NCBI RefSeq assembly: GCF_030553055.1
Contig: NZ_CP130713.1
Coordinates: 3,410,001 to 3,474,000 of the forward strand
DNA length: 64,000 nt
Reading direction: 5' to 3'
Origin: Streptomyces sp. XD-27
GTDB taxonomy: Bacteria > Actinomycetota > Actinomycetes > Streptomycetales > Streptomycetaceae
How positions within the stretch are numbered: position 1 is the stretch's first letter; every line of letters starts with the position of its first letter. This document shows, in pieces, positions 12,149-39,681 of this stretch. The notes beneath the pieces are model-generated. The model saw nothing but the letters and a program-made list of their open reading frames with translations. It was not told the DNA's origin and searched no databases. The position numbers and the translations under genes are program-made.

Positions 12149-13177
12149 TCAGCGGTTGATCGTCTGGACTTCCCCGACCGTGACCGTGGTGGTCGTCCCG
12201 AAGGTGCCGTCGGGCAGCCTGTCGCCCGTGCCACCGCTGCCCTTCCAGGAGATCTCCCAGGTCAGGGTGGCCTTGAGCTGGAACGATCCGCCGCCGGTGG
12301 TGGACCGCAGGTAGTTCACGCCGCACGGCGGGTCCTGCTTGCCCTTGCCTTCGGTGTACGGGGTGCCGATGCTGCCGTCCTCGCTGATGGGGCAGTCCCC
12401 GGACGCGGGGAAAACCTCGGCGTCCTTGGTGCCCGGTTCGATGTGGAGGCTCTTCGGCTTGGCGGTGGTCTCGGCCCACAGGTCCTTACCCAGCGAGGCC
12501 TTGACGGTCACGGGCGTGAACTTCGCCTTGTCCAGCCAGATCCACGTCGGCAGGTTGACCGTCTGCTTGCCTGACGGGTTCATTGTGACCTTGGTGTCAG
12601 GGACGCGGATCTCGTCGTAGGCGTAGCCGGCGAGGATTTCGGGGGTGAGCGTTTCCGCCTTCGGCTTCTCACCGTTAAGTGCGAAGAACATGATCTCCTG
12701 GCAGGAATCCCACTCAACTTCGTCCTTGCGGTTGGGGTTGATCACGCCCCGATACCACTTGCCTTTGCCCTCTTGTGAGACAGCGTAATCCCCGTACTTG
12801 TTGTACTCGGACTTCTTCTCCATGAACCGCTCGAAGTTGACCCGCCCCCAGCTGACCGAGGGCGTTACGGGGATGGATCCGTTGTACGGGTCGATCTTCT
12901 CGACGGCGGCCTTGAGCTGCTTCGGGGTGGCCACCGGCTCGTACCAGCAGACCGGTGGCGTCCAGTTGCTGTTGGTGGGCGCGAGCCGAGTGTTGCCGCC
13001 GGATCCGCCGCCGGACCGGGTGATGGTCACCTTGGTCGCGGTAGCCGACAGGGTGGTTCCATCCGCCTCGCCCCGGGTCCCACCACCGCCGATGTCCGCG
13101 AAGGCCGGTGTACCGCAGGCCGCTATGACGGCCACCGCGAGCGTGACCGTGACGGCGAATCGACGTCCGTTGATCAT
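12149..13177 (-). CDS. Secreted protein, left copy of a duplicated cassette (unknown family)
   Basis: 342 residues from the ATG at 13177, which overlaps the lipoprotein stop as ATGA. A GTG at 13186 sits too close to the GAGGGGGA ribosome site. The signal peptide (residues 1-28) ends in FADI. It is clearly paralogous to the gene ending at 26271. Both share NWTPP-x-CWYEP, a central AYDE-(I/L)-x-VPDT strand, the block EPGTKDAEVxPASGxCPI, a DGSIGTPY motif, PPCGV-x-YLRST, LKATLTWEISW and the ending VQ(T/S)INR. Four Cys are conserved, suggesting disulfides. Function unknown; it is coupled to a lipoprotein and stands beside the Tad pilus genes. Confidence 0.85.
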   Translation of the reverse strand: MINGRRFAVTVTLAVAVIAACGTPAFADIGGGGTRGEADGTTLSATATKVTITRSGGGSGGNTRLAPTNSNWTPPVCWYEPVATPKQLKAAVEKIDPYNGSIPVTPSVSWGRVNFERFMEKKSEYNKYGDYAVSQEGKGKWYRGVINPNRKDEVEWDSCQEIMFFALNGEKPKAETLTPEILAGYAYDEIRVPDTKVTMNPSGKQTVNLPTWIWLDKAKFTPVTVKASLGKDLWAETTAKPKSLHIEPGTKDAEVFPASGDCPISEDGSIGTPYTEGKGKQDPPCGVNYLRSTTGGGSFQLKATLTWEISWKGSGGTGDRLPDGTFGTTTTVTVGEVQTINR

Positions 13178-13833
13178 GGCTGGCACTTCCCCCTCTGCGA
13201 TACCAGCGAGGTGGTCTGCCAGATTCCCTCACTGTTCTTCACAACGCCCGTCACATAGAGCACATAGCTCTTCGATGAGGGCTCAGTGCGGTCGATCTTG
13301 TCCGTCTTGATGTCCTTCGAGAACGCCTTGCTCTCATCGGTGCAGTATCGGAGTGTCGCGACATCATCGGACGTGAACTTGATGCGCGGATCGTAGTAGC
13401 GCAGCGTCCCGGTCAGGGTGTCGCCGTTCTTCTTGAACCCGGTGACCCATTCCCGGGCGCTCGCGAGCGCTGGGCCAATGTTGTAGAACCCCACCTCAGG
13501 TGCCTCAGGGTCCTGCTTGAAGATAGCCGAGTTCACCGCCAGTGCCTGGTACTTGCCGTCCAGCAGTACGGCGTTCTCCTTCGGGTCGTCCGACGTCCAG
13601 CCCTCGAAGACCGTTGTGAAGCCCTTCTCACCCTTCAGCTTCGGGCGCTTGGACGCCATGGGGTCGGATTCGGGGGACTTGGACGGGGACGGCGACTTGA
13701 TGCCGCCCCCCTCTGCACCCTCGATCTTGTCTGACTTCTTGCCGTCGCTGCCGCCGCCGCACGCGGTCAGCAGCAGGGCCGCGCTCGCGGCCAGTGCGGC
13801 GGCAGTGAGGAGGGGGCGGCGGGCCACGGGCAA
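13174..13833 (-). CDS. Lipoprotein, left copy of a duplicated cassette
   Basis: 219 residues. The lipobox is LLLTACGGG (Cys about 25), followed by a Ser/Pro/Lys linker. The folded part has FYNIGPALASAREWVTGF, LRYYDPRIKFTSDD and LRYCTDESKAFSKD, and ends GKCQP. The paralog at 24578-25234 keeps the same order (VTRYYDRKVTFVKDG, VTYCGDESKAYSKD, KKCQP). The shared Cys pair suggests one disulfide. Exported and anchored to the outer face of the membrane. It is coupled to the secreted partner downstream by ATGA. Function unknown. Confidence 0.85.
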   Translation of the reverse strand: MPVARRPLLTAAALAASAALLLTACGGGSDGKKSDKIEGAEGGGIKSPSPSKSPESDPMASKRPKLKGEKGFTTVFEGWTSDDPKENAVLLDGKYQALAVNSAIFKQDPEAPEVGFYNIGPALASAREWVTGFKKNGDTLTGTLRYYDPRIKFTSDDVATLRYCTDESKAFSKDIKTDKIDRTEPSSKSYVLYVTGVVKNSEGIWQTTSLVSQRGKCQP

Positions 13834-13994
13834 CTCCTGGAGGGAGAGGGGTTTTCAGACAAGAGAGACGCTACCTCCGTCGTGCCCGGTTCCGCTGTGG
13901 CCTTCACCATGTCATGGCCGCAACATCGGCGCCGGAGCGGCGGGCGTCCAGGTCCGCACGGGCCCGCCGATGTGCGTGCCGCGTGCGGAATCGG

Positions 13995-16991
13995 TCAGTT
14001 CGCCGCTGCTGCCTGCGGGCCGCGCCACGAGGGCAGGAGTTCGTCCAGCAGGGCTTCCGTGCGGGGCGGGAGGCCGCGGGCGCCGCCGTTCAGTTCGTGG
14101 TTGCGGGCCACCAGGCCGTCCGCCGTGGACCGCAGCAGGTCCGCGTCGCCCGTGGCGTGGGCCGCGCGCAGCAGCTCGTTCCACAGGCGCTCGTCGGCCG
14201 GGGCGGTGGTCAGGGCGGTGGTCAGGACCTCCATGGCGCGGGCCGGGGCGGATGCCTCCTGGTGGTGGGCGGCCAGCGCCAGCGCCACGTCCGCGACCAG
14301 CAGCGGCAGTTGGGCGTCGATGATCTCGTGGGTGAGCCAGGCGTATCGGCCCGCCGGGCGGTCGGCCAGCAGCGGGCCGCGGGCCAGGGCCAGGGCGTCG
14401 GTGAGCAGCCGCTCCCGGAGCTGGGCGCGCCGGGTGCCCCGACCCTGGGTCGCCTCGTAGTGCAGGGTCCGCAGCACGTCCAGGTCGGAGACCACGGACG
14501 GGGCCAGGGTGAGCCGGCCCGTCTCGTCCGTACGCAGGCGCGGCGCGCCGTCCGGGTCGGTGCCGAGCCAGCCGCGCAGCCGGTCGATCAGCGCGTCCCT
14601 GACGTCCTCGGTGGCGCCGCGCGGCCACAGGCCCGAGGCGAGCACGCGCGGGTGCACGCCCTCGCGGTGCAGCAGGAGCAGCGCCAGGGCCTCGTGCAGC
14701 AGCGGGCTGCGCTCGTCCTCGGGCGTCTCCAGGCCCATGACCTCGTACGGGCCGACCAGGCGGGCGTACACCGCGGGGCGGCCTCGCTCGGTGATGTCCA
14801 CCATGAACGGCGGGCGGGTGCCGGGCGCGCCGTCCGGGTCGGGCGTGGCGTCGGAGTCGGCCGCGGCGAACAGTTCCACGACGGCGCGGTGCTGGGCGGC
14901 GGGCAGCAGCTGAGCCGTCAGTTCCAGGCCGAGCAGCGGGGCGCGCAGCCGCCCGTCCGCGGTGATCTCCAGGGCCCAGGTGGCACCGGGCAGTTCGGCG
15001 CGCGACGTGCCGATCAGGTAGCCGATGCCCAGCCGACCGGAATCGGCGGCCAGTTCGGCGAGGGCCTCCGCCTGCGCGCCGGTGGGCTCGTCGGCGAGCA
15101 GCACCAGGTGCGGCGCGTGCTGGGTGTGCTCGGAACGGCCGGTGCGGCCGGTGAGCACCGAGTCATGTCCTGCCGCGCCGAGCGCCCCGCGCCGCTGCCG
15201 GGTCTCCGCCTGCATGGTCTCCACGAGCGCGGCGACGTTGTCCACATGCCGGACGCGGGTGGGGGCGAGCGCGCCGAGCTCCTGGCCGAAGCCGACGAGC
15301 GTGATGGTGAGCCGGTCGGACCAACCGTTGGTGGCCAGCTCGGCGGCGAGGGACGCCATGACGGCCGTACGGTCCGCCTCGGCGCCACTGAGCGAGACGA
15401 TGCCGGGCACAGCCTCCAGGTTGAGCAGCAGCCGGGCGTCGTCCAGGGTGCCGAGGCTGGCCAGGCCCGGGTACGGGGCGGCGGCGCCGTCCTCCGGGCG
15501 CGGCCGGATGTCGCCGCGCGAGACCCGCCAGAACGTCTGGTCCTGGCCCAGCTGCCACGGCGCGGGCGGTTCGCCCGCGGGTGCGGCGAGCTGGAGGTGG
15601 ATCTCACCGGTGGCGAGCCAGGCGGCGTAGACCACCGGCAGCTCGCGACCGGCCTCGGCGAGCTTGGCGGACAGCCCGCGCAGGGCGTTGTCGAGGTCCC
15701 GTACGGCCGCGGGGTCGGCGCCGACCAGCAGCGCGTCCTGTGCGTTGGCGGCCACGCCGGTGGGGGTGAAGTCGATCCCGCTGCCCAGGCCCACGGCGGA
15801 CAGCGCGGCCTGCCACAGCGTGGCGCGGCGGCGGCGCCCGAGCGCGGCGAGCAGCCCGGCCGCCAGCAGCGGCGCGCCGATGAGCGCCTCGGGGAGCCCG
15901 AACTCGTCGCCGGAGTCGGCGGCCACGGCCGTCTCACCTGGCTGCCCGGACTGGCCGGGCTGCTGCTCGCCCGGCTGCGGAAGCGGCTGCTCCTGCACCG
16001 GCGGCTTGGTGTGGATGTCGCCGACCGGGTCGGCCTGGCCCGGCCCGGGCTGCTCGACACCGCCGCCCTGCTCCTCGTGCCCGTGCGGGCTGTTGCGGTC
16101 GTACTCCTGGATCTGCTCGCGCACCTGGCGCGGGACCTCCGGCGCCTCCTCCGGCATCTCGACCAGGTCGCCGCCGTGCGCGTCGGCGGGCATCTCCATG
16201 ATCCAGCCCGGCCGGATCAGGCTGGCCTGGGAGAGCTTCGAACCGTCCGGCTGGAGCCGGTCCTTGTTGAGCTCGTAGATCTCCTTGTAACGAAGGCCGT
16301 CGTCCAGGTGGCGCTCGGCGATCTCCCACAGGGTGTCGTGATGGCGGCCCTCGGGCGGCTGGATGCGGTAGAACTTCGTGTTCTTCTCGGCCTTGGCCCC
16401 CTTGCCCGCCCGCTCCCCGCCGCCGGTGGGGTCCACCGCCCGCGGGCCCTGGGCGTGGTGGTCCACGTCCGCCTTCCCCCCGCCCGGCGTCTGCTCGGCG
16501 GCGGCGACCGTGCCCCGGTGGTTGGCGTCGTAGGCGTTGCCCAGTTGGGACAGTCCGGGGGCGAGGCTGGCGGCGCTAGCCCCGACCAGCAGCAGGGCCG
16601 CGACCAGCTGGCGCGCCAGCAGCTGGCTCGGGCCGGCGCCCGGGATCCGGGACGGCATGCCGACACCGGACAGTTCGGCCTTGCCCTCGACCAGGACACA
16701 GGCGGTGAACTGGGCCCAGGCCAGCCAGACGACGACCGTGAGCACCTTGATGAAGACCGTGGCCGTGATCGGCTCCCGGACGGTGTCCAGGGACGGCATC
16801 TCGTGCGGCAGCGGCCAGCCGACGAAGTACGCGAGCGAGCCGGGCACCCCGACGAGCAGCACGGCCAGCGCGATGAACGCGAGGAACGCCTTGACGAAAT
16901 CGCCGAACGTGCGCTGCGGGTTGTGGGGCAGCGGCCTCGGCTGTGGCCCCGAGGACGGGGCGTTTCGTGCGGTGCGTGCTGTGCGCGCCAT
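13995..16991 (-). CDS. LysM and BTAD domain membrane protein of the Tad pilus locus
   Basis: 998 residues from the ATG at 16991 with an AGGAAG ribosome site. Three membrane helices lie at about 30-52, 78-98 and 125-145. A LysM-like domain follows at about 210-265 (DTLWEIAERHLDDGLRYKEI, then LIRPGWIMEMP), then a Pro/Gln-rich linker, another membrane pair near 340 and a large cytosolic region. The last 250 residues match a bacterial transcriptional activator domain (BTAD) like that of SARPs, though no DNA-binding domain is evident. This type recurs with Streptomyces Tad clusters. It may sense or bind cell wall and scaffold the pilus machinery, which is inference. It is the last gene of the minus-strand locus. 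Confidence 0.8.
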   Translation of the reverse strand: MARTARTARNAPSSGPQPRPLPHNPQRTFGDFVKAFLAFIALAVLLVGVPGSLAYFVGWPLPHEMPSLDTVREPITATVFIKVLTVVVWLAWAQFTACVLVEGKAELSGVGMPSRIPGAGPSQLLARQLVAALLLVGASAASLAPGLSQLGNAYDANHRGTVAAAEQTPGGGKADVDHHAQGPRAVDPTGGGERAGKGAKAEKNTKFYRIQPPEGRHHDTLWEIAERHLDDGLRYKEIYELNKDRLQPDGSKLSQASLIRPGWIMEMPADAHGGDLVEMPEEAPEVPRQVREQIQEYDRNSPHGHEEQGGGVEQPGPGQADPVGDIHTKPPVQEQPLPQPGEQQPGQSGQPGETAVAADSGDEFGLPEALIGAPLLAAGLLAALGRRRRATLWQAALSAVGLGSGIDFTPTGVAANAQDALLVGADPAAVRDLDNALRGLSAKLAEAGRELPVVYAAWLATGEIHLQLAAPAGEPPAPWQLGQDQTFWRVSRGDIRPRPEDGAAAPYPGLASLGTLDDARLLLNLEAVPGIVSLSGAEADRTAVMASLAAELATNGWSDRLTITLVGFGQELGALAPTRVRHVDNVAALVETMQAETRQRRGALGAAGHDSVLTGRTGRSEHTQHAPHLVLLADEPTGAQAEALAELAADSGRLGIGYLIGTSRAELPGATWALEITADGRLRAPLLGLELTAQLLPAAQHRAVVELFAAADSDATPDPDGAPGTRPPFMVDITERGRPAVYARLVGPYEVMGLETPEDERSPLLHEALALLLLHREGVHPRVLASGLWPRGATEDVRDALIDRLRGWLGTDPDGAPRLRTDETGRLTLAPSVVSDLDVLRTLHYEATQGRGTRRAQLRERLLTDALALARGPLLADRPAGRYAWLTHEIIDAQLPLLVADVALALAAHHQEASAPARAMEVLTTALTTAPADERLWNELLRAAHATGDADLLRSTADGLVARNHELNGGARGLPPRTEALLDELLPSWRGPQAAAAN

Positions 16992-17117
16992 GGCGGGACT
17001 TCCTATGCCTTCGGTGGTCGCCGGGGGTGCGACAGATGCTGGTAGGACAAGAGTAGTCAGGGGCACTGACAGCCGGTACGGCCGAGCCGATCCGCCGACC
17101 GGTCGTCAGCTGGTCCG

Positions 17118-17645
17118 CTAGCCGGTCAGCGACTCGGCCTTCGCGGTGCCGCTCACCGTGATGGAGCCGCTGTAGAACAGGCCGGTCAGCACCGGTTTGT
17201 ACGTGAGCGTGATCTCGACCTCGACCGCTTGGGCGCTGGCACTGGTGCACCGGGCGGACGTGACGCCGTCTCCGGCCTCGCGGGCGAAGGTGCGGACCCT
17301 TTCGTCGCAGTTCTGGTAGAGGATGTACGCGTGCTCGCCCTTGCTGCGGCGCAGTTCCTCGATGTCCAGGTCCTGCGCCGCGTACCGGGCCGCCTGCTCC
17401 GCCAGATCGGCCGCGCGTTCGCGCTGCGAGATGGACATCCCGCCGTCCACGACGAACGCGGCCACCGCGAGGAACAGGACGGCGAAGACGATGACGGCGG
17501 CCGAGCCCGAACCGCGGTCCCCGCGCAGCCCCTGCCGCCGCTCCCGGCCGCCCCCGCGCAGCCGCTGCCGCCACTCCCGGCCGTCTCCGCGCAGCCGCTG
17601 CCGCCACTCCTCGACGCGCCTTCCGGCCGTCTTCCTGCCGCTCAT
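17118..17645 (-). CDS. TadG-like pilus assembly protein (N-terminal helix type)
   Basis: 175 residues. The basic N-terminus contains three imperfect copies of E-W-R-Q-R-L-R-G-type units. One membrane helix follows (SGSAAVIVFAVLFLAVAAFV), then VDGGMSISQRERAADLAEQA, which is the Flp-pilus-assembly TadG-like N-terminal signature. The C-terminal part lies outside the membrane and ends in two beta strands. It begins by ATGA overlap with the upstream TadE-like gene. Short compared with full TadG, which has a long vWA-like region. Likely a pseudopilin-like or pilus-associated membrane protein. Confidence 0.8.
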   Translation of the reverse strand: MSGRKTAGRRVEEWRQRLRGDGREWRQRLRGGGRERRQGLRGDRGSGSAAVIVFAVLFLAVAAFVVDGGMSISQRERAADLAEQAARYAAQDLDIEELRRSKGEHAYILYQNCDERVRTFAREAGDGVTSARCTSASAQAVEVEITLTYKPVLTGLFYSGSITVSGTAKAESLTG

Positions 17646-18154
17646 GTCGCCCTCTTGTGCGGGTCGATGGGTGACACGGCCCGGCCCTTGACCGTGCTGC
17701 CGATGCCCAGGCCCAACATGTCCAGTCCGCGGACCTCGCAGCTCACCTCGACCTTGAAGAAGCCGCCCGGCTGGAAGTCCGTGCCGGTGAACCGCACCGT
17801 GACCGCGCCCTTGCAGACGTCGCCGAGATCCGCCTCGGCCGCCTTGCGCGCCTCGCTCATCGCGACGGCGTAGGTGTGCTGGATGGAACCCGCGCGCGCG
17901 GCGTCCCGGGCCGCCCCGTCGACCGCGCCCCGCCCGTCCACCAGTTGCCCGAAAGCGACCAGGACCAGGATGAACAGGATCATCACCGGCGCGAGGATGA
18001 CCACCTCGATGGTGGACAGGCCCGCGTCCGCCGGCCGTCTGAGGCGGCCGGCCCACCGGCGCTTGAGCCGATTCCGAGCCGCCGCCGTCGTCGCCACCGT
18101 CGCCGACGCCTTCGTCACCGCCTTCGTCGCCGCACACGGCGTTCCACGGCTCAT
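17642..18154 (-). CDS. TadE-like pilus assembly protein 1
   Basis: 170 residues. The N-terminal basic cytosolic tail leads into the TadE motif LSTIEVVILAPVMILFILVL, one membrane helix with a conserved Glu five residues in, followed by an R-x-A-x-x-A-A-R helix (DGAARDAARAGS). The rest is extracellular. TadE-type minor pseudopilins prime or cap Flp pili and are processed by a TadV/prepilin-type peptidase; no peptidase gene is visible here. Overlaps both neighbours by ATGA. Confidence 0.85.
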   Translation of the reverse strand: MSRGTPCAATKAVTKASATVATTAAARNRLKRRWAGRLRRPADAGLSTIEVVILAPVMILFILVLVAFGQLVDGRGAVDGAARDAARAGSIQHTYAVAMSEARKAAEADLGDVCKGAVTVRFTGTDFQPGGFFKVEVSCEVRGLDMLGLGIGSTVKGRAVSPIDPHKRAT

Positions 18155-18705
18155 CCGAAGTCCTCGACGAAGCGCTCGACCGGGCCCTGCGACCGCGCGT
18201 GCACAGTGAAGTTCAAGCCCGGGAAGACGGTCGGCACCTTGGCCTCGACCTGCACGCCCACCGTGTTCTGCTCCGGCCGCACCGTCTTCACGTCCGGTCC
18301 GATCAGCAACTGGGGCCCAAGTTGGCGGATGTACGTACGGGCCTTGGCCTCCGCCTCGCCGCGCCAGCCGCCCGGATTCTCGTCCGCCGTCGCGCGCGCC
18401 TTGCGGGCGCCCGCCTGGGCCGCGGCCTGGGCCACGTGGTCGGCGAAGAAGTACAGCGCGAACTGCACCGTGGCGAAGATGAGGAAGAAGAGCACCGGCG
18501 TGAGCAGCACGAACTCGATCGCGGTCATGCCACTGTCGCTGGTGCGGCCCGCGCTGGTCCGGCCCGCGCTGGTCCGGCCCGCGCCCGTACGGCCCGCGCT
18601 CGTGCGCCGTACGCCGCCGTCCGCGCCCACGACCGCGCCGCCGTCGCCGCGGGCGGCGTCCAGCCTGCGGCGTACGGCGCGGTGCAGGGCACCCGTTCGT
18701 CTCAT
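18151..18705 (-). CDS. TadE-like pilus assembly protein 2, with in-frame repeat in its tail
   Basis: 184 residues. The TadE motif is MTAIEFVLLTPVLFFLIFAT, with the conserved Glu at position 5 of the motif, followed by AAAQAGARKARA. Before it, the cytosolic tail contains four to five 5-residue units R-T-S-A-G (coded by 15-bp repeats near 18540-18605). Those units lie N-terminal to the expected prepilin cleavage site, so they would not be in the mature pilus. The gene overlaps the next TadE-like gene by ATGA. Confidence 0.85.
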   Translation of the reverse strand: MRRTGALHRAVRRRLDAARGDGGAVVGADGGVRRTSAGRTGAGRTSAGRTSAGRTSDSGMTAIEFVLLTPVLFFLIFATVQFALYFFADHVAQAAAQAGARKARATADENPGGWRGEAEAKARTYIRQLGPQLLIGPDVKTVRPEQNTVGVQVEAKVPTVFPGLNFTVHARSQGPVERFVEDFG

Positions 18706-18741
18706 GCGCTCAGCTCAGTCCAAGGGTCGACGGTCAGCGGT

Positions 18742-18846
18742 CAGTGCGGCACAGCGTCCGTGTGGTGCGGCACGGCGTCAGCGCGGTGCCGCGAGGCGTC
18801 AGCGCGGTGCGGCACGGCATCAGCACGGTGCGACAGGGCGTCGGAC
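18742..18846. repeat. 21-bp tandem repeat abutting the Flp pilin stop codon
   Basis: Five units of exactly 21 bp start at 18742, 18763, 18784, 18805 and 18826, consensus CGGTGCGGCACGGCGTCAGCG. The array ends at the stop codon of the leftward pilin gene (18851). It fills most of the only sizeable gap between pilin and TadE-like genes. Confidence 0.9.
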
Positions 18847-18850
18847 GACG

Positions 18851-19102
18851 TCAGCACGTCTTCTCGGCGTTGGCGCCCTTGATGCAGTCGCCGACCTTGT
18901 TCGCGCCGTCGCTCAGCGCCGAGTTGATGATCGCGGCGACCACACCGACGATCGCGACCACGACCGCCGAGATGATCACCCACTCGACCGCGGAGGCGCC
19001 GCGGTCCAGCTCGCCCGAGCGCGCCCGGTCGATCCGGCCGCGCAGGAAGGTGACCAGGAAGTCCACGGCCGGCAGGCCGGTCATCCGAGATCCGAAGTTC
19101 AT
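18851..19102 (-). CDS. flp: Flp/Fap-type major pilin
   Basis: 83 residues. The Flp motif is RGASAVEWVIISAVVVAIVG: small residues, the conserved Glu before a long hydrophobic helix, then VVAAIINSALSDGANKVGDC. Two Cys near the C-terminus (DCIKGANAEKTC) may form a disulfide loop, unusual for a Flp pilin. Length fits the family. Strong placement at the head of the TadE genes supports it as the main pilus subunit. The usual prepilin site would be before the A-S-A-V-E stretch. Confidence 0.85.
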   Translation of the reverse strand: MNFGSRMTGLPAVDFLVTFLRGRIDRARSGELDRGASAVEWVIISAVVVAIVGVVAAIINSALSDGANKVGDCIKGANAEKTC

Positions 19103-19146
19103 GGTGGTGTCCTCTCAAACAGGTGGGGGAAGAAGTGGTGGGGTGG

Positions 19147-20079
19147 TCAGACCTGGAACACGCGCATCGCCGCGGGGAAGATGAGGAAGACCAGGAACCC
19201 CGCGCACAGCAGCAGCTGCGCTACCAGCATTGACTGCGACTTCTCTCCCGCACTCCCCTCGATCTCTGCCAGCTCCCGGTGCCGCATCGTTTCGGCCCGC
19301 GAGGCGAGCGACTCACGCACCTTGGCGCCGTCGTCCGCGACCAGTGCCAGCGAGGCAGAAAGGTCCTTAAGTTCCTCGACGCCAAGTTCCTCGCCAAGGT
19401 TCCCGAGTGCCTGCCACTGGCTGATCCCCGTGATACGGGCGTCCGCCAGCGTGTTGCGCACCCGGCGCAGCGCCCAGCCGTCGCTGATCTCGGCGGCCGC
19501 CATCAGCGCCTCCGGCAGGCCGCGGCCGCCCGCGAGGTTCATCGACACCAGGTCCAGATACGCGCCGATCACCCGCCGCAGGTCACGCCGCTTGTCCGCC
19601 GCGTCCCGCTTGACCTCCAGGTCCGGGAGCATGAAGAACAGGCCCGCGAAGAACAGCGCCAGCCACAGCGGGATCACCGGACTGCTGCCGAAACCCAGCG
19701 TCCATACGATCGCGAAGATGAACGGGCCGAAGAACAGCCCCGCGGCGGCCAGCAGCACCTTCGTCGCCAGGAACGCCTCCCAACTGCGCTCCAGCACGTT
19801 CAGGTCGGCCCGCAGCGACCGCTGCTCCCAGCCCTGCTGCAGATAGAAGTCGGCCACGCGCGCGCCGACCCGGGAGCGCAGCGAGTCGAGCCGGCCCTCG
19901 TCACCCGCCGGCTGCCGGTCCGCGGCCGCGTGCGCCGAGCCGCGCGCCCGCAGCGCGTCGATCTGCGCGACCCGCGCGACCGCGCCCCGCTTACGGGGCA
20001 TCAGCGCCCGTACGAGCACGTAGACACCGAGTCCGAAGACGGCACCGATCAGCACCGGCGCGGTCAGACTGCTGTTCAT
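19147..20079 (-). CDS. tadC: TadC-like type II/IV secretion inner-membrane platform protein
   Basis: 310 residues with a GspF-type domain: membrane helices at about 8-25, 110-130, 135-155 and 285-305, and the cytosolic signature RRVIGAYLDLVSMNLAGGRGLPEAL. ATG at 20079 overlaps the TadB stop (ATGA). TadB and TadC form the pilus platform that the CpaF ATPase acts on. Ends 45 bases before the pilin gene. Confidence 0.9.
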   Translation of the reverse strand: MNSSLTAPVLIGAVFGLGVYVLVRALMPRKRGAVARVAQIDALRARGSAHAAADRQPAGDEGRLDSLRSRVGARVADFYLQQGWEQRSLRADLNVLERSWEAFLATKVLLAAAGLFFGPFIFAIVWTLGFGSSPVIPLWLALFFAGLFFMLPDLEVKRDAADKRRDLRRVIGAYLDLVSMNLAGGRGLPEALMAAAEISDGWALRRVRNTLADARITGISQWQALGNLGEELGVEELKDLSASLALVADDGAKVRESLASRAETMRHRELAEIEGSAGEKSQSMLVAQLLLCAGFLVFLIFPAAMRVFQV

Positions 20080-21155
20080 CGCGGCGTCACCTCCCCCTCA
20101 CGCGATCCGGGACCGTACGCGGCCGGTCCGCCGCCACGGCCGCCGCCCGGCGCACCCGCCGGTCCGCCGCCCGCGGCCGGTCCTGCATAGCCGTGCGGCG
20201 CCGCCTGCGCCCCGGCCGCCTCCTGCCCCGGCCCCTGCCCCGACCGGGGCCGTACGAACTGCACGGCGGGCTCGTCCCGGGTCAGGAAGCGGTCCGGGGT
20301 CTCGATGCTGGACAGCTTGCGCAGCCACCAGAAGCCGAGCCCGAACAGCCCGCAGACGCAGGCCAGTACGAGCTGCCCGACCGCCGTGCCGTACGGCTTC
20401 ACGAAGTCCCGGTTGAAGATCGACAGGCCCAGCACGAACAGCACCGACACCGCGATGACGATCTGCACGCTGCGCCGGGTGCTGGCGCGCTGCGCCATGA
20501 CCCGCTGCCGCATGTCGACCTCCTCACGCGCCGACTTGGCCAGGGCGCCCAGCACCTCGCGCAGACCGGGGCCGCGCAGCCGCGCGTTGAGGATCAGTGC
20601 CGCGACGATGATGTCGGCCGAGGCGTCGTCGATCTCGTCGGCCAGGTGCTGCAGCGCGTCGGGCAGCGGCGTACGCGCGCGCAGCCGGTCCACCAGGGCG
20701 TCCAGGTGCGGACGCAGGGCCGGGGCCGCGGCCCGCGCCGACGCCGGGATGGCCTGCTCCAGGCCGACCGCGCCCGCGATGGTGTCGCGCAGCGACTCGG
20801 TCCAGGCGGCCAGCGCCTCGACGCGCCGCATCGCGGCCCGCTCCTCGGCGGCGCCGCCGAACAGCCGGTCCCAGAAGAAGACCAGGACGGCGCTGGCGGC
20901 GCCCATGACCGCCCATCGGGTCAGCAGCAGGACGACCAGGCCGACGCCGACGGCGAGCGAGCCGCGCCGGCTGACGAACCGGGCGAGTTCGGCGGACCGT
21001 TCGCTCGCCTTGGCCTTCTCGTGCGCCGGCTTCGCGGGCAGGCCGCGGAGGGCGACGACGAGCAGCGCGATGCCGCCGCCGACGACGACGCCGGACAGCA
21101 GCGCGTAGAGCACCGGCAGCGAGAGAAAGCCGCCCATCGAGGAAATGCCGTTCAT
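20076..21155 (-). CDS. tadB: TadB-like platform protein
   Basis: 359 residues. Membrane helices lie at about 15-35, 65-95 and two near 245-290. The GspF-like cytosolic domain includes VEALAAWTESLRDTIAGAVG and LEQAIPASARAAAPAL, the standard TadB signature. A C-terminal tail of about 55 residues is Gly/Pro/Ala-rich and probably disordered. Four bases after the CpaF stop; overlaps TadC by ATGA. Confidence 0.9.
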   Translation of the reverse strand: MNGISSMGGFLSLPVLYALLSGVVVGGGIALLVVALRGLPAKPAHEKAKASERSAELARFVSRRGSLAVGVGLVVLLLTRWAVMGAASAVLVFFWDRLFGGAAEERAAMRRVEALAAWTESLRDTIAGAVGLEQAIPASARAAAPALRPHLDALVDRLRARTPLPDALQHLADEIDDASADIIVAALILNARLRGPGLREVLGALAKSAREEVDMRQRVMAQRASTRRSVQIVIAVSVLFVLGLSIFNRDFVKPYGTAVGQLVLACVCGLFGLGFWWLRKLSSIETPDRFLTRDEPAVQFVRPRSGQGPGQEAAGAQAAPHGYAGPAAGGGPAGAPGGGRGGGPAAYGPGSREGEVTPR

Positions 21156-21159
21156 GCCC

Positions 21160-22467
21160 TCACCCCCAGGTCCCGGTCGGGCGGTAGCCGTACGCCGTCA
21201 GCTCGTCGATGCAGGAGATGGGCGCGTGCGGGACGACCCGGCCGTCGGCCGTCTCCGCGAACACCTCGCTCGACAGGACGCGGCCGTCCACGCCGTTGAC
21301 CTCCCGTACGGAGGTGACCATGCGCTGGAGCCGACCGCCCTGCAGATAGCTGTTCCGGCGTTCGATGAAGACGACGAAATTGACCGCGCCCGCCACGAGC
21401 ATCTGGCTGGCCTCGATGGGCAGCCGCTCACTGGCCTGGAGCGCGTACGTGGAAATACGGTTGAACACTTCGCTGGAACTGTTCGCGTGAATCGTGGACA
21501 GCGAACCGTCATTGCCCTGCGACATGGCGTTGAGCATCGTCACGATCTCGTCACCGAGAACCTCACCGACGATGACGCGGGAGGGGTTCATACGCAGCGA
21601 ACGGCGCACGAGCTCGGCCATGGATATCGAGCCCAGCCCCTCGGAATTGGGCAGCCGCTCCTCAAAGGCGACGACGTTCGGGTGCAGGTCGGGGAACTGG
21701 TCGAGTCCGAGCTCCAACGCCCGCTCCACGGTGATCAGACGCTCAGTGGGCGGAATCTCGTTCGCGAGCGCGCGCAGCAGCGTCGTCTTGCCGGCGTTCG
21801 TGGCCCCCGCGATCATGATGTTCTTACGGGCCCGTACGGCGCACGCGAGGAAGTTCCCCAGCTCCGGGGTGAGCGTCCCGTTCCCCACCAGGTCGGCCAT
21901 GAACACCTTGCCGAGGCGCGCCCGGCGGATGGATAGGGCGGGCCGCCGGGTCACGTCCATCACGGCGGAGAGCCGGGACCCGTCGGGAAGCCGCAGGTCG
22001 AGCTGCGGATTGGCGGAGTCGAACGGACGGGAGGACAGCCCGGAGTACGCGCCGAGGACCTGGATGAGCTCGACCAGCTCCTCGTCGGTCTCGGCGACCG
22101 GCTCGCCCTGCACCTCGCGGCCGTCGGAGTAGCCCACGAAGACCTGGTCGCAGCCGTTGATGTCGATGTTCTCGACATCGGGGTCGTCCAGCAGCGGCTG
22201 GAGCCGGCCGACGCCGAAGAGCGCGGCGTGCACCGCGGCGGCGTATTGCTCCTCGGTCTCCGCGTCCGGCGGCGTACGCCCGAAGTTGATCTCCGTACGG
22301 GCGTAGTCCTCCAGGATCTGGGCGATCACCGCGCGCGCGTACTGCCGCTCGTCCTCGGTGGACATCGGTGCCGCGCCCGACGCCTGGTCCACCCGCCGCT
22401 GCTCGGCGATGCGGTCGCCCGCGTCCTGCCGGAACCGCTTGACCAGCTGGTGGTCGACCGTGCTCAT
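21160..22467 (-). CDS. cpaF: CpaF/TadA-type pilus assembly ATPase
   Basis: 435 residues from the ATG at 22467, which overlaps the upstream stop as ATGA. A longer frame exists but has no ribosome site. The N-terminal helical domain has the CpaF block VGRLQPLLDDPDVENIDING. Walker A is GATNAGKTTLLRAL, then the Asp-box region and Walker B RMNPSRVIVGEVLGDE, then His-box GSLSTIHANSS. A cytosolic hexameric motor that drives Flp pilus extension and possibly retraction. Confidence 0.95.
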   Translation of the reverse strand: MSTVDHQLVKRFRQDAGDRIAEQRRVDQASGAAPMSTEDERQYARAVIAQILEDYARTEINFGRTPPDAETEEQYAAAVHAALFGVGRLQPLLDDPDVENIDINGCDQVFVGYSDGREVQGEPVAETDEELVELIQVLGAYSGLSSRPFDSANPQLDLRLPDGSRLSAVMDVTRRPALSIRRARLGKVFMADLVGNGTLTPELGNFLACAVRARKNIMIAGATNAGKTTLLRALANEIPPTERLITVERALELGLDQFPDLHPNVVAFEERLPNSEGLGSISMAELVRRSLRMNPSRVIVGEVLGDEIVTMLNAMSQGNDGSLSTIHANSSSEVFNRISTYALQASERLPIEASQMLVAGAVNFVVFIERRNSYLQGGRLQRMVTSVREVNGVDGRVLSSEVFAETADGRVVPHAPISCIDELTAYGYRPTGTWG

Positions 22468-23294
22468 CGGTACGCCCCCGGCCCGCCGGGCTGCGCCCAC
22501 GCGGCACCGTAGTTCTGATGCAGGTCACCGACGACCTTGCGGGCCGAACGGATCAGCAGCGACTTGTCCAGGCGGCCGCGCCGACGCCCGTTCAGCTGGG
22601 CGGCGCCGGCGGGGTCGTGGGCGATGACCCCGACCACCCGCGCGCCGCACTGCGCGGCCACGAGCATGTCGTTGACCTGCCCGGCCAGCTTGGCGCCCGT
22701 CCCGGAGTCGGCGATCAGCAGCACGCCGATGAGCGGCGTGCCCAGCTGCGCGGCCCCGCGGTGCGCGCCGTGCAGCTTGGCCGAAAGCGCCCCGGCACGG
22801 TCCCGGACGCGGGCCAGGTTCTCCGGCTCCGAGCGGGCCACCAGCAGCACCAGCGACGCCTGCGGGAACATGTCCACGACCACGGAGTCCGCGCCGACGC
22901 GCCCGCAGTCCGCGATGACGTCGGCGGGGCCGTGCGCGGACTGGGCGAGTCCGGCGAAGGCGTGCCCGAGGGTCGGCCACAGCCCGGTCAGCCCGGCCGA
23001 CTGCTCCGACGTCCCCAGCCCGACCAGCACCTCGAGGCCGCCGGACATCGGCTGCGCGTGGTCCCACAGCTGCTCGGCGGCCAGCCCGCGCCGCGCGGTG
23101 GCGGCGACGGACAGCATGCCCGTGTTGGGGTCCAACGGCCCACCGTGCGCCGCGACACCGCGGTACACCAGGTCCCCGCCGGCCGGATCCGCCTCGGCCA
23201 GCAGCGCACGCCGCGGCCAGACAGCGGAGATCGCGACGGCGGTCGTGGTGACGCCGGGCGAACCCTTGTCGGCGGCGAGAGCGATAAGCGCCAT
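22464..23294 (-). CDS. CpaE/TadZ-like ParA-type ATPase
   Basis: 276 residues. A deviant Walker A near the N-terminus reads AADKGSPGVTTTAVAIS and lacks the usual Lys after Gly, as expected for some TadZ/CpaE proteins and as seen in Streptomyces Tad clusters. The Walker A' region (EADPAGGDLVYRG) has the signature Asp, and ADVIADCGRVGADS matches Walker B. It is presumed to place the pilus machine at a site in the cell and probably binds ATP weakly. Start at 23294, 199 bases downstream of the CpaB-like gene across a tandem repeat. Confidence 0.8.
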   Translation of the reverse strand: MALIALAADKGSPGVTTTAVAISAVWPRRALLAEADPAGGDLVYRGVAAHGGPLDPNTGMLSVAATARRGLAAEQLWDHAQPMSGGLEVLVGLGTSEQSAGLTGLWPTLGHAFAGLAQSAHGPADVIADCGRVGADSVVVDMFPQASLVLLVARSEPENLARVRDRAGALSAKLHGAHRGAAQLGTPLIGVLLIADSGTGAKLAGQVNDMLVAAQCGARVVGVIAHDPAGAAQLNGRRRGRLDKSLLIRSARKVVGDLHQNYGAAWAQPGGPGAYR

Positions 23295-23370
23295 GTTCTT
23301 ACGTGTCCTCGTATCCCTCTGACGGTGCCTGCGACGGTGCCGGTGACGGCATCCGCGGTACGGCCGCTCG

Positions 23371-23492
23371 GCCGCCGCGTACGTGGTACGGAGCGGCTGC
23401 CCGGCTGCCGCGTACGTGGTACGGAGCTGCCGCCCGGCTGCCGCGTACGTGGTACGGAGCTGCCGCCCGGCTGCCGCGTACGTGGTACGGGG
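23371..23492. repeat. 33-bp tandem repeat abutting the CpaB-like stop codon
   Basis: Units of 33 bp start at 23371, 23404, 23437 and 23470 (last truncated). The shared core is GCTGCCGCGTACGTGGTACG. The last copy runs up to the stop codon at 23493 of the leftward CpaB-like gene. Such an array inside a pilus operon may separate expression of the pilus-secretion parts, but that is unproven. Confidence 0.9.
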
Positions 23493-24239
23493 TCACTCGC
23501 CGGCCGCGGGGACCTTGACGATGGCCACCTCGCCGGCGGCCGCGGCCTGCACCAGGGTGGCGGCCTGGCTCTTGTCCACGAGCAGGGAGACGGGGAGATC
23601 GGTGCTGCCGATGTCACCGCTGTTGCCGTCACCGACGTCCTGCACCCTGGCCGTCGGCGCGAGCATGGTGTCGGCGCCGCCACCGGATCCGCCCGAGGCG
23701 CCGGAGGACCCGGCGGAGCCGTTCGAACCGCCCTTGTTGTCGGCGTCGCTCACCCGGAAGGCGGTGACGGTGTCCCCCTGCGCCAGGTCCTTGGGGTACT
23801 GCCCGGCCTTGAGGGAGAGGCCCACGAGCACCTTGCCGTCGGGCAGGCCCTTGGAGTCCTCGGTCAGCATCGGACCGACGAGGAGCGAACCCGCCACGAT
23901 GTCCTTGGTGGCACGGTATTTCGCGATGGCGTCCCGCTGATCCCATTTCACATAGTCGATGCCGGAATCCTCGGCGACGAGAACGGATTCCATCGCGGAA
24001 TCGGGGATCTTCTTCCCGGCCGTCACGTCCTGCGTGATCTTCACGACCTCGATACGGTCGCCGGCCCGCAGCACGAGCACGGTCGCGCCCAGCGCGCCGA
24101 CGAGGATCAGCAGCACCGCCAACGCGGCCAGTGCAGGCTTGCGCTCACGGGGCGCGGACGGCAACCGCTCCCCGACCCCTTGAGCCGGCGCCGAGCTCCC
24201 CCTGCCGTGCGCCGCCCCCGTGCGCTCCTGGATCTTCAC
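23493..24239 (-). CDS. cpaB: CpaB/RcpC-like SAF domain protein of the Tad locus
   Basis: 248 residues. N-terminal cytosolic segment, a membrane helix (LAALAVLLILVGALGATVLV), then a SAF fold: VVKITQDVTAGKKIPDSAM and YRATKDIVAGSLLVGPML, and LSLKAGQYPKDLAQGDTV. A Gly/Ser linker follows, then a last globular segment. CpaB/RcpC anchors Tad pilus parts at the envelope. It is the first gene of the locus, so its promoter lies in 24240-24577. Confidence 0.85.
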   Translation of the reverse strand: MKIQERTGAAHGRGSSAPAQGVGERLPSAPRERKPALAALAVLLILVGALGATVLVLRAGDRIEVVKITQDVTAGKKIPDSAMESVLVAEDSGIDYVKWDQRDAIAKYRATKDIVAGSLLVGPMLTEDSKGLPDGKVLVGLSLKAGQYPKDLAQGDTVTAFRVSDADNKGGSNGSAGSSGASGGSGGGADTMLAPTARVQDVGDGNSGDIGSTDLPVSLLVDKSQAATLVQAAAAGEVAIVKVPAAGE

Positions 24240-24577
24240 GCCAACGCTCCCGCAAGTAATGTCCGAATTCAGGGATTTACCCCGCTACAGCCCCGCCGCA
24301 GCCCCACTCGCGCGACTCACGCGACTCACGTGCCCGATGCACGCCCCTGCGCTCTTAGGTCGCCGAACCGAGGACTGTCAAGTCATCGCACCGTATCAGG
24401 GGCACATAAACGCCTCAAGGCGCGCGGGTTCCAGCCATGCTCCGCCAGGGGCTCGACCCCCCGCCTCCACTTATCCACAGGCGTTGATGCCGTCCGACGC
24501 CTGTCAGCCATCCGTGCCATCATCGATGGACTTTGCTTATCGGACACCCAATCGGACGCCCATAGGAGATAGGGAAG
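24240..24577. other. Divergent promoter region between the Tad locus and the right lipoprotein cassette
   Basis: 338 bases without a gene. It should hold the Tad promoter (leftward) and the lipoprotein promoter (rightward). A perfect TTATCCACA sits near 24473, matching a DnaA box, but it is single. I saw no tandem repeat or strong hairpin here. Confidence 0.6.
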
Positions 24578-25234
24578 TTGAAAACGCACACACGCACGAT
24601 GGCGAGCCTGGCAGCACTCCTGACCGCCGCATCACTGGCCCTGACGGCGTGCGGCGGTGACTCGAAGTCCGACGGCAAGGACAAGATCGACGGCGCGAAG
24701 AACACTCCGACGGCGGCGGCACCGACCACGACGGCGCCGGGGGACGGGATCAAGCGGCCGGAGATCAAGCTTCCGGGTGACGTGAAGAACGTCTTCGAGC
24801 CCAAGCAGACCGGGGACCCGAAGCAGGACGCGGTGCTGGCCGACAACGAGCGTGCCATCAACTCCATCGACGAAGCCATCACTAAGGGCAAGGGTGACCA
24901 CCTCGGCCTCAAGTTCTATTCAAAGGGCAGCGCCCTGGTTGAGGCTACGCGATACATCCAGAGCTTCTACGCTGCCGACACGACCTTCGTCGGCGTTACT
25001 CGCTACTACGACCGTAAGGTCACCTTCGTCAAGGATGGGGCAGCGGTCGTCACTTATTGTGGCGACGAAAGCAAGGCGTACAGCAAAGACCGCAAGACGA
25101 AGAAGGTGACGAAAGCATCGCCTTCCCCCAGCGATTACACCTTCTACAGCGAACGCATGGAGAAGAACAAGTTGGGCGTGTGGCAGTCGTCCAACGTCAT
25201 CTCAGAGGAGGCTTCCAAGAAGTGCCAGCCTTGA
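24578..25234 (+). CDS. Lipoprotein, right copy of the duplicated cassette
   Basis: 218 residues. Lipobox LALTACGGD (Cys about 26), a Thr/Pro/Ala linker, then the same folded body as the gene at 13174-13833: FYSKGSALVEATRYIQSFYA, VTRYYDRKVTFVKDG, VVTYCGDESKAYSKD and the ending KKCQP. Transcribed rightward, away from the Tad locus, mirroring the left copy. The ORF begins near TTG/ATG choices just after AGGGAAG; the exact start is not certain. Function unknown. Confidence 0.85.
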   Translation: MKTHTRTMASLAALLTAASLALTACGGDSKSDGKDKIDGAKNTPTAAAPTTTAPGDGIKRPEIKLPGDVKNVFEPKQTGDPKQDAVLADNERAINSIDEAITKGKGDHLGLKFYSKGSALVEATRYIQSFYAADTTFVGVTRYYDRKVTFVKDGAAVVTYCGDESKAYSKDRKTKKVTKASPSPSDYTFYSERMEKNKLGVWQSSNVISEEASKKCQP

Positions 25235-26271
25235 TCAGTTCGCCGCCGCGCAAGGCCACAGTCGTCGCCTTGTCCTTGGCCGTAGCAGTGATTCCGTCGA
25301 CTGCTGTCGCAGGCGGCAAGGCTCCTGGCGGCCACCGGGGAAGTGGCAAAGGGACCGCGAATGGACCTTCGGTAGCGGCCGAGGTACAGGTGTCCGGCGT
25401 GAAGAAGACCGTCAATGGAAATCCAGGATCCGGCAAGTCCGGCGCCCTGACCCCCAAGGACACCAACTGGACGCCTCCCGCCTGCTGGTACGAGCCGAAG
25501 TTCTCCCCCAAGGAAGTCAAGTCCTTGATCGAAGGCTTGGAGAAGTCCAAGTTTCCGTTCAACATCGGCCCCATCATGAGTAAGGCGTACAAGGCCCTCT
25601 TCCAGACGGACAAGTACGAGGACTACAACATGGCCAAGCAAGGCAAGGGCATGTTCTGGACCTCGGTGATCAACCCGGCCCGCAAGGACGACCCCGAGGC
25701 GATGTCCTGCGACAAGCCGCCCTTCTGGGTCGATGAAGGGCAAACGCCCGACGAACCTCTCGCCGTCTCGCCCGAGATCCTCGCCCAGTACGCGTACGAC
25801 GAGCTCCCGGTGCCCGACACCGACATCACCATGAGCCCCGACGGCAAGCAGACCGTCAACGTCGACACCTGGGTCTGGCTCGACAAGGCCAGGTTCAAGC
25901 CGGTCTCCGTCACCGCCAGCCTCCCCGATACCGGGCTCTCCGCGACCACCACCGCCAAGCCCGTCTCCCTCACCCTGGAACCCGGCACCAAGGACGCTGA
26001 GGTGCACCCCGCCTCCGGCTCCTGCCCGATCAACCAGAAGGACGGCAGCATCGGCACGCCGTACTCCGAGGACAAGGAAGGCCAGACGCCGCCCTGCGGG
26101 GTCACCTATCTCCGCTCCACCGCCAACTCCGGACCGCACAAGCTCAAGGCGACGCTCACCTGGGAGATCTCCTGGACGAGCACCACCGGCGAGGGCGGCA
26201 AGCTCCCCAGCGGCAGCTTCGGCACAACCACGGACATCACCGTCCAGGAAGTCCAGTCCATCAACCGCTGA
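25222..26271 (+). CDS. Secreted protein, right copy of the duplicated cassette
   Basis: 349 residues from the GTG at 25222, which has GAGGAGG 10 bases upstream and overlaps the lipoprotein by 13 bases. A TTG at 25231 would recreate the ATGA-type overlap of the left copy. Signal peptide residues 1-25 (AVAVIPSTAVAGG). Shares with the left copy NWTPPACWYEP, AYDELPVPDT, EPGTKDAEVHPASGSCPI, DGSIGTPY, PPCGVTYLRST, LKATLTWEISW and VQSINR. Likely a disulfide-bonded beta-rich exoprotein. Confidence 0.85.
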   Translation: MPALISSPPRKATVVALSLAVAVIPSTAVAGGKAPGGHRGSGKGTANGPSVAAEVQVSGVKKTVNGNPGSGKSGALTPKDTNWTPPACWYEPKFSPKEVKSLIEGLEKSKFPFNIGPIMSKAYKALFQTDKYEDYNMAKQGKGMFWTSVINPARKDDPEAMSCDKPPFWVDEGQTPDEPLAVSPEILAQYAYDELPVPDTDITMSPDGKQTVNVDTWVWLDKARFKPVSVTASLPDTGLSATTTAKPVSLTLEPGTKDAEVHPASGSCPINQKDGSIGTPYSEDKEGQTPPCGVTYLRSTANSGPHKLKATLTWEISWTSTTGEGGKLPSGSFGTTTDITVQEVQSINR

Positions 26272-31183: not shown

Positions 31184-31233
31184 ATGAGATCTCCCCGTGA
31201 CGTTTTCTGCGATTCGTCGAGCAAGTTCCGTGA

Positions 31234-31575
31234 TCAGTAACCGCGCAGGTCGAGCTGAATCAGTTTGGCGTCGGCGATGGGAACCTTCTCGGGAGTTTCA
31301 TCGATCTTGGCCTGTACCGCCGGGATCAGCTTCTCAAGCAGCTGCACCATGTGCGTGCGTCGCGCGGCGATGTCCGAATGCCATTTGTCGGCTGTTTTGC
31401 CGACCCATGCCTTATCTTCCTCCGCCTTCCCTTCTCCGACCCGCTTGGCAGTCGTCTTCAGGAGCTCCTTGAGGTCTTTCAGCTCCTCCTGGAGGTTCTG
31501 CTTCAACCTCACAAGGTGTGTTCGGTATGGGTTGTCGACCTTGGGTACTTCATCGGACTTGCCGTTCTCGCCCAT
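31234..31575 (-). CDS. Small helical W-x-G protein (ESAT-6/WXG100-like) A
   Basis: 113 residues from the ATG at 31575 (GGAGGG site). Two long helices with a turn at A-W-V-G-K-T: RLKQNLQEELKDLKELLKTT before it and ADKWHSDIAARRTHMVQLLE after it. This is the helix-turn-helix layout of WXG100 substrates, with W-x-G in the turn. Charge-rich like its neighbours. Lies directly upstream of the 698-residue gene, same strand, so the pair may be exported together. Confidence 0.65.
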   Translation of the reverse strand: MGENGKSDEVPKVDNPYRTHLVRLKQNLQEELKDLKELLKTTAKRVGEGKAEEDKAWVGKTADKWHSDIAARRTHMVQLLEKLIPAVQAKIDETPEKVPIADAKLIQLDLRGY

Positions 31576-31653
31576 CGAGCCCTCCCCTCCTCTGCGCCGT
31601 ATTAGCAGAGCACATGTAGGGGCCGCAGACCAGAGAATTCGCAAACTTGATAC

Positions 31654-38911: not shown

Positions 38912-39681
38912 GCCTCTCCCCGTGTGGTCTCGAATCGTTCCCGGTATTGCATTGGGCCCATGGCCGACGACCCGCGCCCCAGGTGCGTGGCGCAACGTCA
39001 CCCGCCACTCTGACGAGGCGTGGTCACCGGCCATCAGCACAGTGGTGGCAGCCTCAACACAACATCTATCGCTGTGTGGTGGGTATAGGAAGCCAGACGC
39101 TACCTCTCGTAGGCCCGGTTCCGGCATCCCCTCCAACCAAGCGATGGTCTCACTCAGCACGATGCGGCTGCAATCACGTATGACGATCCTGACAAAGACG
39201 GCAAACCGGTGTGCCCGAGGATGGCCAAGTCCACTGCGGGGGCCGCCATTCAGCACCGTTCGGGCGCGCACTCAGCTGGGATCCTGTGTAACGTCTCCGC
39301 TACCATCCCGTCCCGACTCTGAAACCAACAGCACCGGCCTGTTTCACGAGTTCCCTCGAATGCATTTCCGTCAAATGCATACCAAAATGGGCTATTTGCC
39401 AGCCTTCCTTCTGGCTAGATGACAGAACCGTTGCCGACTACCCAGGAGGAACCGGGGCGAGTCCGACAGGGCAGTGCCGCCAGCCGCTCTCCCAGGGTTG
39501 CCCCTCCTTGGGTTAACGCACCCGGTCCTCATATGCTGAGTTGATTCAGCTGACGCTAGACTGCGTCACCGGTCGCAGTAGTTGACCGCATCTCATAGCG
39601 GATGACGGGTACTGCGAGATTGGGATAACGTCGAAGAGGTGACGGATCGTCCGTCCACCTCTGATGCACGGGGAGGCGCAT
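38912..39681. other. Low-GC intergenic region, no supported gene
   Basis: 770 bases. The reading frame of the 37838 gene stays open upstream to 39271, with a protein-like stretch (CCVEAATTVLMAGDHASSEW) but no start with a ribosome site. It could be a remnant or an unrecognised gene. GC is clearly lower than elsewhere. A plus-strand leader to the WXG100 gene lies at 39540-39681. Confidence 0.5.

Follow-up and report, generated by a model that had tools for sequence, protein, structure and literature searches.

A lipoprotein–exoprotein gene pair accompanies Tad pilus operons in Streptomyces, other actinobacteria and their plasmids

Introduction

The Tad systems of actinobacteria are usually described by the genes known from Gram-negative bacteria. 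Three tad operons have been counted in Streptomyces avermitilis (PMC3244431), and a CpaB homolog matters for transformation in Micrococcus luteus (PMC4322843, PMC8467076); the word 'lipoprotein' does not occur in the examined parts of the latter two articles. On the Cutibacterium acnes plasmid p09-9, TadE1–TadE4 correspond to APS60_12595 to 12610, and the consulted part of the same article describes APS60_12625 as a signal-peptide protein of 30.7 kDa, called hypothetical by its authors, which was detected together with TadE2 by mass spectrometry in the secreted and mechanically sheared fractions of two plasmid-positive strains (PMC5696575). Here we analysed a stretch of 64,000 nucleotides from Streptomyces sp. 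XD-27 (contig NZ_CP130713.1, positions 3,410,001 to 3,474,000; hereafter the window), in which a Tad operon is flanked by two copies of a gene pair encoding a lipoprotein (LIP) and an exported protein (EXO).

By distribution and gene order, LIP–EXO belongs with Tad, and it is conserved in the Tad operons of many actinobacteria and plasmids. Tad pili themselves are known; what is new is a Tad pilus with an actinobacterial lipoprotein–exoprotein module that is amplified in Streptomyces. In the literature searched (listings and the starts of abstracts, with subscription papers and preprints not covered), no LIP- or EXO-like family was described in Tad loci.

Results

The Tad operon of the window occupies positions 13995-24239 on the minus strand. 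To its left, on the same strand, lie lipL (13174..13833) and exoL (12149..13177; ATG at 13177, with a longer GTG frame starting at 13186), and to its right, on the plus strand, lipR (24578..25234) and exoR (25231..26271). In both pairs the lip stop codon overlaps the exo start. An earlier note on this DNA had placed paralogous lipoprotein/exoprotein pairs at these positions around a Tad locus, and we confirmed this: the EXO proteins are 50% identical (342 positions) and the LIP proteins 37% identical (221 positions), and the lipoprotein ending KCQP, the exoprotein ending VQ(T/S)INR and the motifs DGSIGTPY and LKATLTWEISW are all present. The note had also called the pairs mirrored and outward-facing, which is right for their orientation and calls for one correction in layout. 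The left pair is co-directional with the Tad operon, 3′ of it and directly after a LysM/BTAD gene, and the right pair alone is divergent from the operon start. A third LIP–EXO copy was not found in the 7.55-Mb genome, where the next matches had E values of 1.57 (EXO) and 0.027 (LIP).

We searched 199 Streptomyces genomes for EXO at E <= 1e-5 and observed matches in 69 of them, 51 strong (E below 1e-69) and 18 weak (6e-7 to 4e-19). CpaF of the window type (85–100% identity) was present in 51 genomes, which were the same 51 that have a strong EXO. Both traits were therefore present in 51 genomes and both absent in 148. CpaF of this type was single in each of the 51, and the number of EXO matches ranged from 1 to 10 per genome; as at most ten candidates were scored in each genome, copy numbers near ten are lower bounds. 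None of the 40 EXO-negative genomes searched for window-type CpaF contained it. We placed both traits on an rpoB-rpoC tree of 80 genomes from this set, 46 of the 51 that have them and 34 that lack them. Their presence pattern, identical for the two, takes 15 changes, of which at least 13 are forced by well-supported branches.

Distances between EXO and CpaF were counted on 150 listed EXO matches, beyond which more exist. Sixty-one of these copies lie within 40 kb of CpaF, 40 are more than 100 kb off on the same contig and 49 are on other contigs. The co-occurrence of EXO and Tad is thus not explained by linkage alone. In genome G010 both EXO matches are more than 100 kb from CpaF, and the same holds for all the listed copies in G088 (three listed of five), G184 (three of six), G105 (five of eight) and G047 (three of seven).

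Seven further Streptomyces genomes, all among the 18 with a weak EXO, carry only a divergent CpaF (47–51% identity). We opened 12 divergent Tad loci, namely those seven and five of the same type in genomes that also hold the first type. Each of the 12 encodes an EXO homolog (E values of 2e-16 to 5e-26 by profile) on the same strand as the Tad genes and ahead of all recognised ones; CpaB comes first among these in six loci, and CpaE or CpaF in the rest. A lipoprotein-like frame overlaps the EXO start, with a lipobox-like motif in 9 of the 12. A sequence profile relates these lipoproteins to LIP weakly (E <= 0.11 for 3 of 12), but a profile–profile comparison does so with 96% probability over 115 columns, and the LIP of a Kitasatospora plasmid bridges both LIP sets (E 6e-42).

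Across the class, a combined EXO profile matched 141 of 394 genomes, belonging to 46 of the 137 sampled genera, and CpaF was found in 121 genomes (E <= 1e-60). EXO and CpaF occurred together in 115 genomes, CpaF alone in 6 and neither in 247. We then compared 40 EXO loci outside Streptomyces, hand-picked from the listed profile matches at one or two per genus. CpaF, TadB or TadC was nearby in 34 of them, one more had TadE genes only, and one was cut by the contig end; a LIP-like gene was present in 35. Two gene orders were dominant when EXO rows were assigned by position: LIP-EXO-CpaB-CpaE-CpaF-TadB-TadC (25 rows) and TadE genes-LysM/BTAD-LIP-EXO (9 rows). In all eight checked loci of the second order the LysM/BTAD gene lies between the TadE genes and LIP–EXO, which is the left layout of the window; the ninth locus, L225, was outside that check and showed no LIP.

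Several observations weigh against a strict tie between EXO and Tad. Seven of the 18 weak-EXO genomes carry the divergent CpaF, and the other 11, of which one locus was opened (in G067), have no CpaF at the cut-off. In the class, 26 of the 394 genomes have EXO and no CpaF at the cut-off, 4 of the 40 loci outside Streptomyces have no Tad gene nearby, and in G067 and G293 EXO was found without Tad in the opened stretch. Some of the EXO-only genomes are threshold effects, as Tad loci are present in G285, G390, G425, G505 and G475. At locus L331 (G067) and locus L337 (G457), LIP–EXO lies within about 14 kb of a contig end, with no Tad genes in the opened stretch; these two pairs are perhaps the remains of linear-plasmid Tad operons. 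The earlier note had named two findings that would speak against a pilus link, homologs widespread without Tad genes and recent tandem copies of a housekeeping family unrelated to pili. As far as tested, and despite the 11 weak-EXO genomes, we observed neither.

The association extends to plasmids. The window protein exoR (tblastn, E <= 1e-5) matched 50 plasmid records of PLSDB, 46 of them from Streptomyces, and no phage record; a more distant EXO query (E <= 0.01) matched 230 plasmid records. In all four Streptomycetaceae plasmid loci that we opened, LIP–EXO stands within a compact Tad operon; an A24 peptidase gene comes after one of these operons, on a Kitasatospora plasmid. On a plasmid of Cutibacterium acnes related to p09-9, the order is TadB-TadC-TadE genes-LysM/BTAD-LIP-EXO (EXO match E 7e-20; LIP weak, 6e-5). 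Its EXO has 301 residues and 31.9 kDa, and the neighbouring products have 109.8, 22.0 and 35.9 kDa. Judged by gene order, size and leader, the exported protein APS60_12625, three genes past TadE4, would fit the EXO position. Several of the opened EXO-bearing actinobacterial plasmids are linear. As Tad operons were found in all five opened plasmid loci, the question of a role in plasmid transfer arises. The pilus link proposed in the earlier note is thus strongly supported, both by the 51 genomes with and 148 without the two traits and by the module standing inside Tad operons elsewhere.

We further analysed the position and age of the Streptomyces copies. A listed EXO copy lies within 40 kb of CpaF in 40 of the 51 genomes, and in 14 of those 40 copies are found on both sides of Tad; the bracketing seen in the window therefore recurs. 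Of the listed copies, 41 are on the CpaB side, and 38 of these point away from Tad; of the 20 on the opposite side, 5 are co-directional with Tad and 15 have the reverse orientation. The three CpaB-side copies that run with the Tad operon are in G037, G156 and G090; at L101 (G037) and L051 (G090), the EXO copy immediately precedes CpaB, an arrangement like that of the divergent Tad loci. Extra LIP copies without an EXO of their own stand in tandem beside a pair at L075, L078 and L080, with three LIP called before one EXO at L080; further LIP-like stretches were also seen.

The EXO tree comprised 154 of 196 rows, after about half of the far Streptomyces copies had been dropped at random. As several long branches meet in it and many branches are unsupported, we used it only for whether exoL and exoR are sisters and for the nearest rows of exoR. 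In other genomes, the five closest rows to exoR occupy without exception the divergent place that exoR has in the window, and the smallest well-supported set holding exoR has 35 rows, 16 of which are downstream co-directional copies. exoL falls in another part of the tree, where a single upstream copy joins it in a well-supported two-member set; L175 is its nearest row. As exoL and exoR are not sisters, the window pairs are old paralogs. These data bear on another suggestion of the earlier note, that a duplication had trapped the locus. If the pairs were the arms of a recent inverted duplication, their position around Tad would be functionally meaningless, and the 73% DNA identity that the arms show in a 503-bp segment at the exo 3′ end could be taken in its favour. 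However, apart from that segment the arms share only three short pieces, as expected of old paralogs rather than of a recent inverted repeat, and the proteins are just 50% and 37% identical. The non-sister status of exoL and exoR, the recurrence of exoR's nearest rows at the same place and the bracketing in 14 of 40 genomes all contradict a recent duplication, which we rejected as extremely improbable. The left pair holds the position at the operon 3′ end after the LysM/BTAD gene that is also present outside Streptomyces; the divergent right pair is its old paralog.

The operon between the pairs, encoded throughout on the minus strand, starts with a CpaB/RcpC-like (SAF) protein (23493..24239), whose own profile matches annotated SAF-domain genes and which has no direct Pfam match. 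It is followed by a CpaE/TadZ-like ATPase (22464..23294), assigned by its position and by a profile match to the same-place gene of annotated Tad operons, again with no Pfam match, and by the CpaF/TadA ATPase (21160..22500; Pfam T2SSE 1e-27), TadB (20076..21155; T2SSF 2.2e-11) and TadC (19147..20079; T2SSF 3.7e-09). An 83-residue protein (18851..19102), without a Pfam match, is a candidate for the Flp-type major pilin by sequence, size and position. Then come a TadE minor pilin (18151..18705; Pfam TadE 1.3e-13), a TadE-like minor pilin (17642..18154; TadE 3.4e-09) and a TadG-like pseudopilin (17118..17641, 5′ limit approximate; Pfam Tad PF13400 1e-07). With a TadA/CpaF ATPase, two TadB/TadC platform proteins, TadE/TadG-type minor pilins and an Flp candidate, the cluster is a Tad system. 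Its last gene before lipL (13995..17066) encodes a LysM and BTAD-like protein (Pfam BTAD 9.8e-05; LysM 0.0095, below the cut-off), relatives of which end plasmid Tad operons and carry LysM annotations. Outside Streptomyces, too, such a protein closes the Tad operon. A helix-turn-helix regulator is encoded at 10096-10950 of the window, and its cluster is found in 6 of 41 compared neighbourhoods, the window included.

To the right of exoR lies a type VII secretion region. It includes a putative effector of 698 residues (29087..31183, minus strand), whose N-terminal 135 residues are 43% identical to a protein encoded directly after EXO at L068, and its small WXG-like partner (31234..31644, minus), which has 37% identity to the gene directly after EXO at L061 and no Pfam WXG100 match. 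A WXG100 protein (39664..39948, plus; Pfam WXG100 1.1e-08) and an EccC-type FtsK/SpoIIIE ATPase (40046..44674, minus; Pfam FtsK_SpoIIIE 2e-63) belong to the same type VII island. The N-terminal part of the 698-residue protein is conserved and its C-terminal part divergent. A setting like that of window positions 29087-44674, with EccC and a WXG100-type gene, recurs at loci L042 and L043. By eye, similar genes at 27026-27328 and 37048-37776 flank the effector region, the former apparently shortened by a frame change, with the expected continuation in a neighbouring frame.

When 41 neighbourhoods (40 loci and the window) were compared, a frequent order in Streptomyces was LIP, EXO, a small WXG-like protein, a 449-residue protein and one or two further genes. 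The 449-residue WXG-like family occurs in 15 of the 41 neighbourhoods and in 37 of the 199 genomes, 35 of which have a strong EXO; 28 of its 67 copies have a listed EXO less than 2 kb away, and its gene follows EXO on the same strand in 25 of the 30 tight pairs. The first 140 or so residues of the protein match the start of frames of ~1500 residues. A 69-row effector list, which omits short matches, mostly in frames of about 500-1600 residues, has 67 rows in EXO genomes; the other two are in G001 (79% complete) and G086, where no EXO was found at E <= 1e-5. EccC is within 35 kb of CpaF in 40 of the 42 genomes that have both on one contig.

From these neighbourhoods one could propose that LIP–EXO is an accessory of type VII effectors (a chaperone, immunity protein or cell-wall adaptor), near Tad merely by way of the neighbouring EccC island. 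The proximity of EccC to CpaF and the close, co-directional pairing of EXO with the 449-residue family favour such a reading. However, EccC relatives are present in 11 of the 40 EXO-negative genomes, and the type VII part is therefore independent of LIP–EXO. Moreover, all 12 divergent loci and most of the opened loci outside Streptomyces have LIP–EXO inside the Tad operon. In the 40 loci of the latter group, where the effector families were not profiled, the EccC profile gave 1 match and the WXG100 profile none. On plasmids LIP–EXO stands in compact Tad operons, and the four Streptomycetaceae operons list no type VII effector gene beside it. We had at an early stage read the neighbourhoods as assigning LIP–EXO to the type VII effectors and not to Tad; the divergent, non-Streptomyces and plasmid loci reversed that reading, and we now consider it improbable.

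LIP and EXO match no family in Pfam, NCBIfam or PADLOC, where LIP gave only weak leader matches below the cut-off, and a sequence search of solved structures returned no convincing relative of either. Judged by eye, the EXO leader is Sec-like and the LIP leader lipoprotein-like. The mature part of LIP, including that of lipR, is predicted to adopt an NTF2-like fold and in the model has the features of the NTF2-like superfamily. The C-terminal half of EXO, including that of exoR, gave a weak structural match to PKD/Ig-like domains, and fold searches with EXO gave nothing above noise; the N-terminal part of EXO is poorly conserved. No pilin of the type found at the Kil tip was among the top rows of the fold searches with LIP and EXO, although top rows alone do not exclude one. 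In public annotations, EXO homologs go by 'enoyl reductase' or 'ATP/GTP-binding protein', neither of which suits the model or the gene neighbourhood. LIP–EXO is thus an undescribed two-gene module, consisting of a lipoprotein with an NTF2-like model and an exported protein whose C-terminal half is possibly PKD/Ig-like.

Discussion

The co-occurrence with Tad, the operon order, the plasmid operons and the published sheared and secreted protein that would fit the EXO position lead us to regard LIP–EXO as very probably an extracytoplasmic component of the Tad pili of actinobacteria. The surface adhesion, polymer binding or self-recognition suggested in the earlier note are speculative roles, while the published proteomics, interpreted by gene order, agrees with export of EXO to the surface. 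EXO is probably exported and surface-exposed, and we infer that the biochemical role of the module is that of a surface-exposed cap, tip or adaptor. The explanation that we favour, and hold to be likely as a whole, is a Tad extracytoplasmic module with an anchoring LIP, an exported EXO and alternative surface specificities. LIP, with its NTF2-like domain, would sit at the pilus base next to CpaB, on the outer side of the membrane, and would hold EXO, which may leave with the pilus or cap it, as a cap, tip or sleeve. The variable N-terminal part of EXO would face outwards at the cell surface and the conserved C-terminal half would dock to the apparatus. Several pairs in one genome may then give one pilus machine alternative surface specificities, and pairs co-encoded with WXG100-type effector candidates could couple contact to the release of an effector.

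A place outside the membrane would also suit a fixed structural part. LIP–EXO could stand in for the secretin or pilotin in bacteria without an outer membrane and guide the pilus through the wall, with no role in recognition. However, a genome with one window-type CpaF can have up to 10 EXO matches, and the N-terminal part of EXO is poorly conserved. As many EXO copies, one CpaF and a variable N-terminal part fit alternative surface parts better than one fixed channel, we regard the fixed stand-in as rather unlikely.

The actinobacterial Tad systems gain two gene families hitherto hidden under 'hypothetical', 'enoyl reductase' and 'ATP/GTP-binding protein'. LIP and EXO are direct targets for studying the passage of a Tad pilus through and out of the monoderm cell wall. 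The published Cutibacterium plasmid surface protein can be reinterpreted as a factor probably linked to the pilus, and the multiplication of pairs in Streptomyces, together with the type VII genes beside them, offers a testable case of exchangeable pilus parts.

Compared with Tad (type IVc, Flp) systems in general, the window has the expected CpaB, CpaE, CpaF, TadB, TadC, Flp candidate, TadE, TadE-like and TadG-like genes, and differs by the addition of the LysM/BTAD gene and the LIP–EXO module. No secretin gene was noted in the window, though none was searched for. The Tad plasmids of Cutibacterium acnes (PMC5696575) share the order TadE-LysM/BTAD-LIP-EXO, seen on a related plasmid, and an exported 30.7-kDa protein would stand at that place; unlike in Streptomyces, one EXO place was seen in the record and no amplification of the Streptomyces type. 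The VirB8 family of type IV secretion is comparable in having an NTF2-like extracytoplasmic domain held at the membrane, a likeness that for LIP is a predicted fold match only; LIP differs by its lipoprotein leader, and searching solved structures by sequence yielded no VirB8 match.

The closest published idea among the articles consulted is the Kil system of Myxococcus, which, as the consulted part of its description presents it (PMC12075869), also combines one Tad pilus with several paralogous accessory gene sets elsewhere in the genome, and has a second secretion-like system, T3SS*, where Streptomyces has the type VII island. The interchangeable tips of Kil are minor pilins, whereas the LIP and EXO models match other folds and give no pilin sign, and by eye EXO has a Sec-like and LIP a lipoprotein leader. 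By analogy, the Tad pilus, the EccC island and the LIP–EXO modules might form one contact-dependent weapon, with exchangeable recognition parts and with the pairs in effector operons directing the release of their own effector, as a monoderm counterpart of Kil and T3SS*; this extended picture we consider quite improbable. Perhaps, without being classed as a member of that system, LIP–EXO nevertheless works like the Kil pilus, in which one Tad machine is served by several accessory sets.

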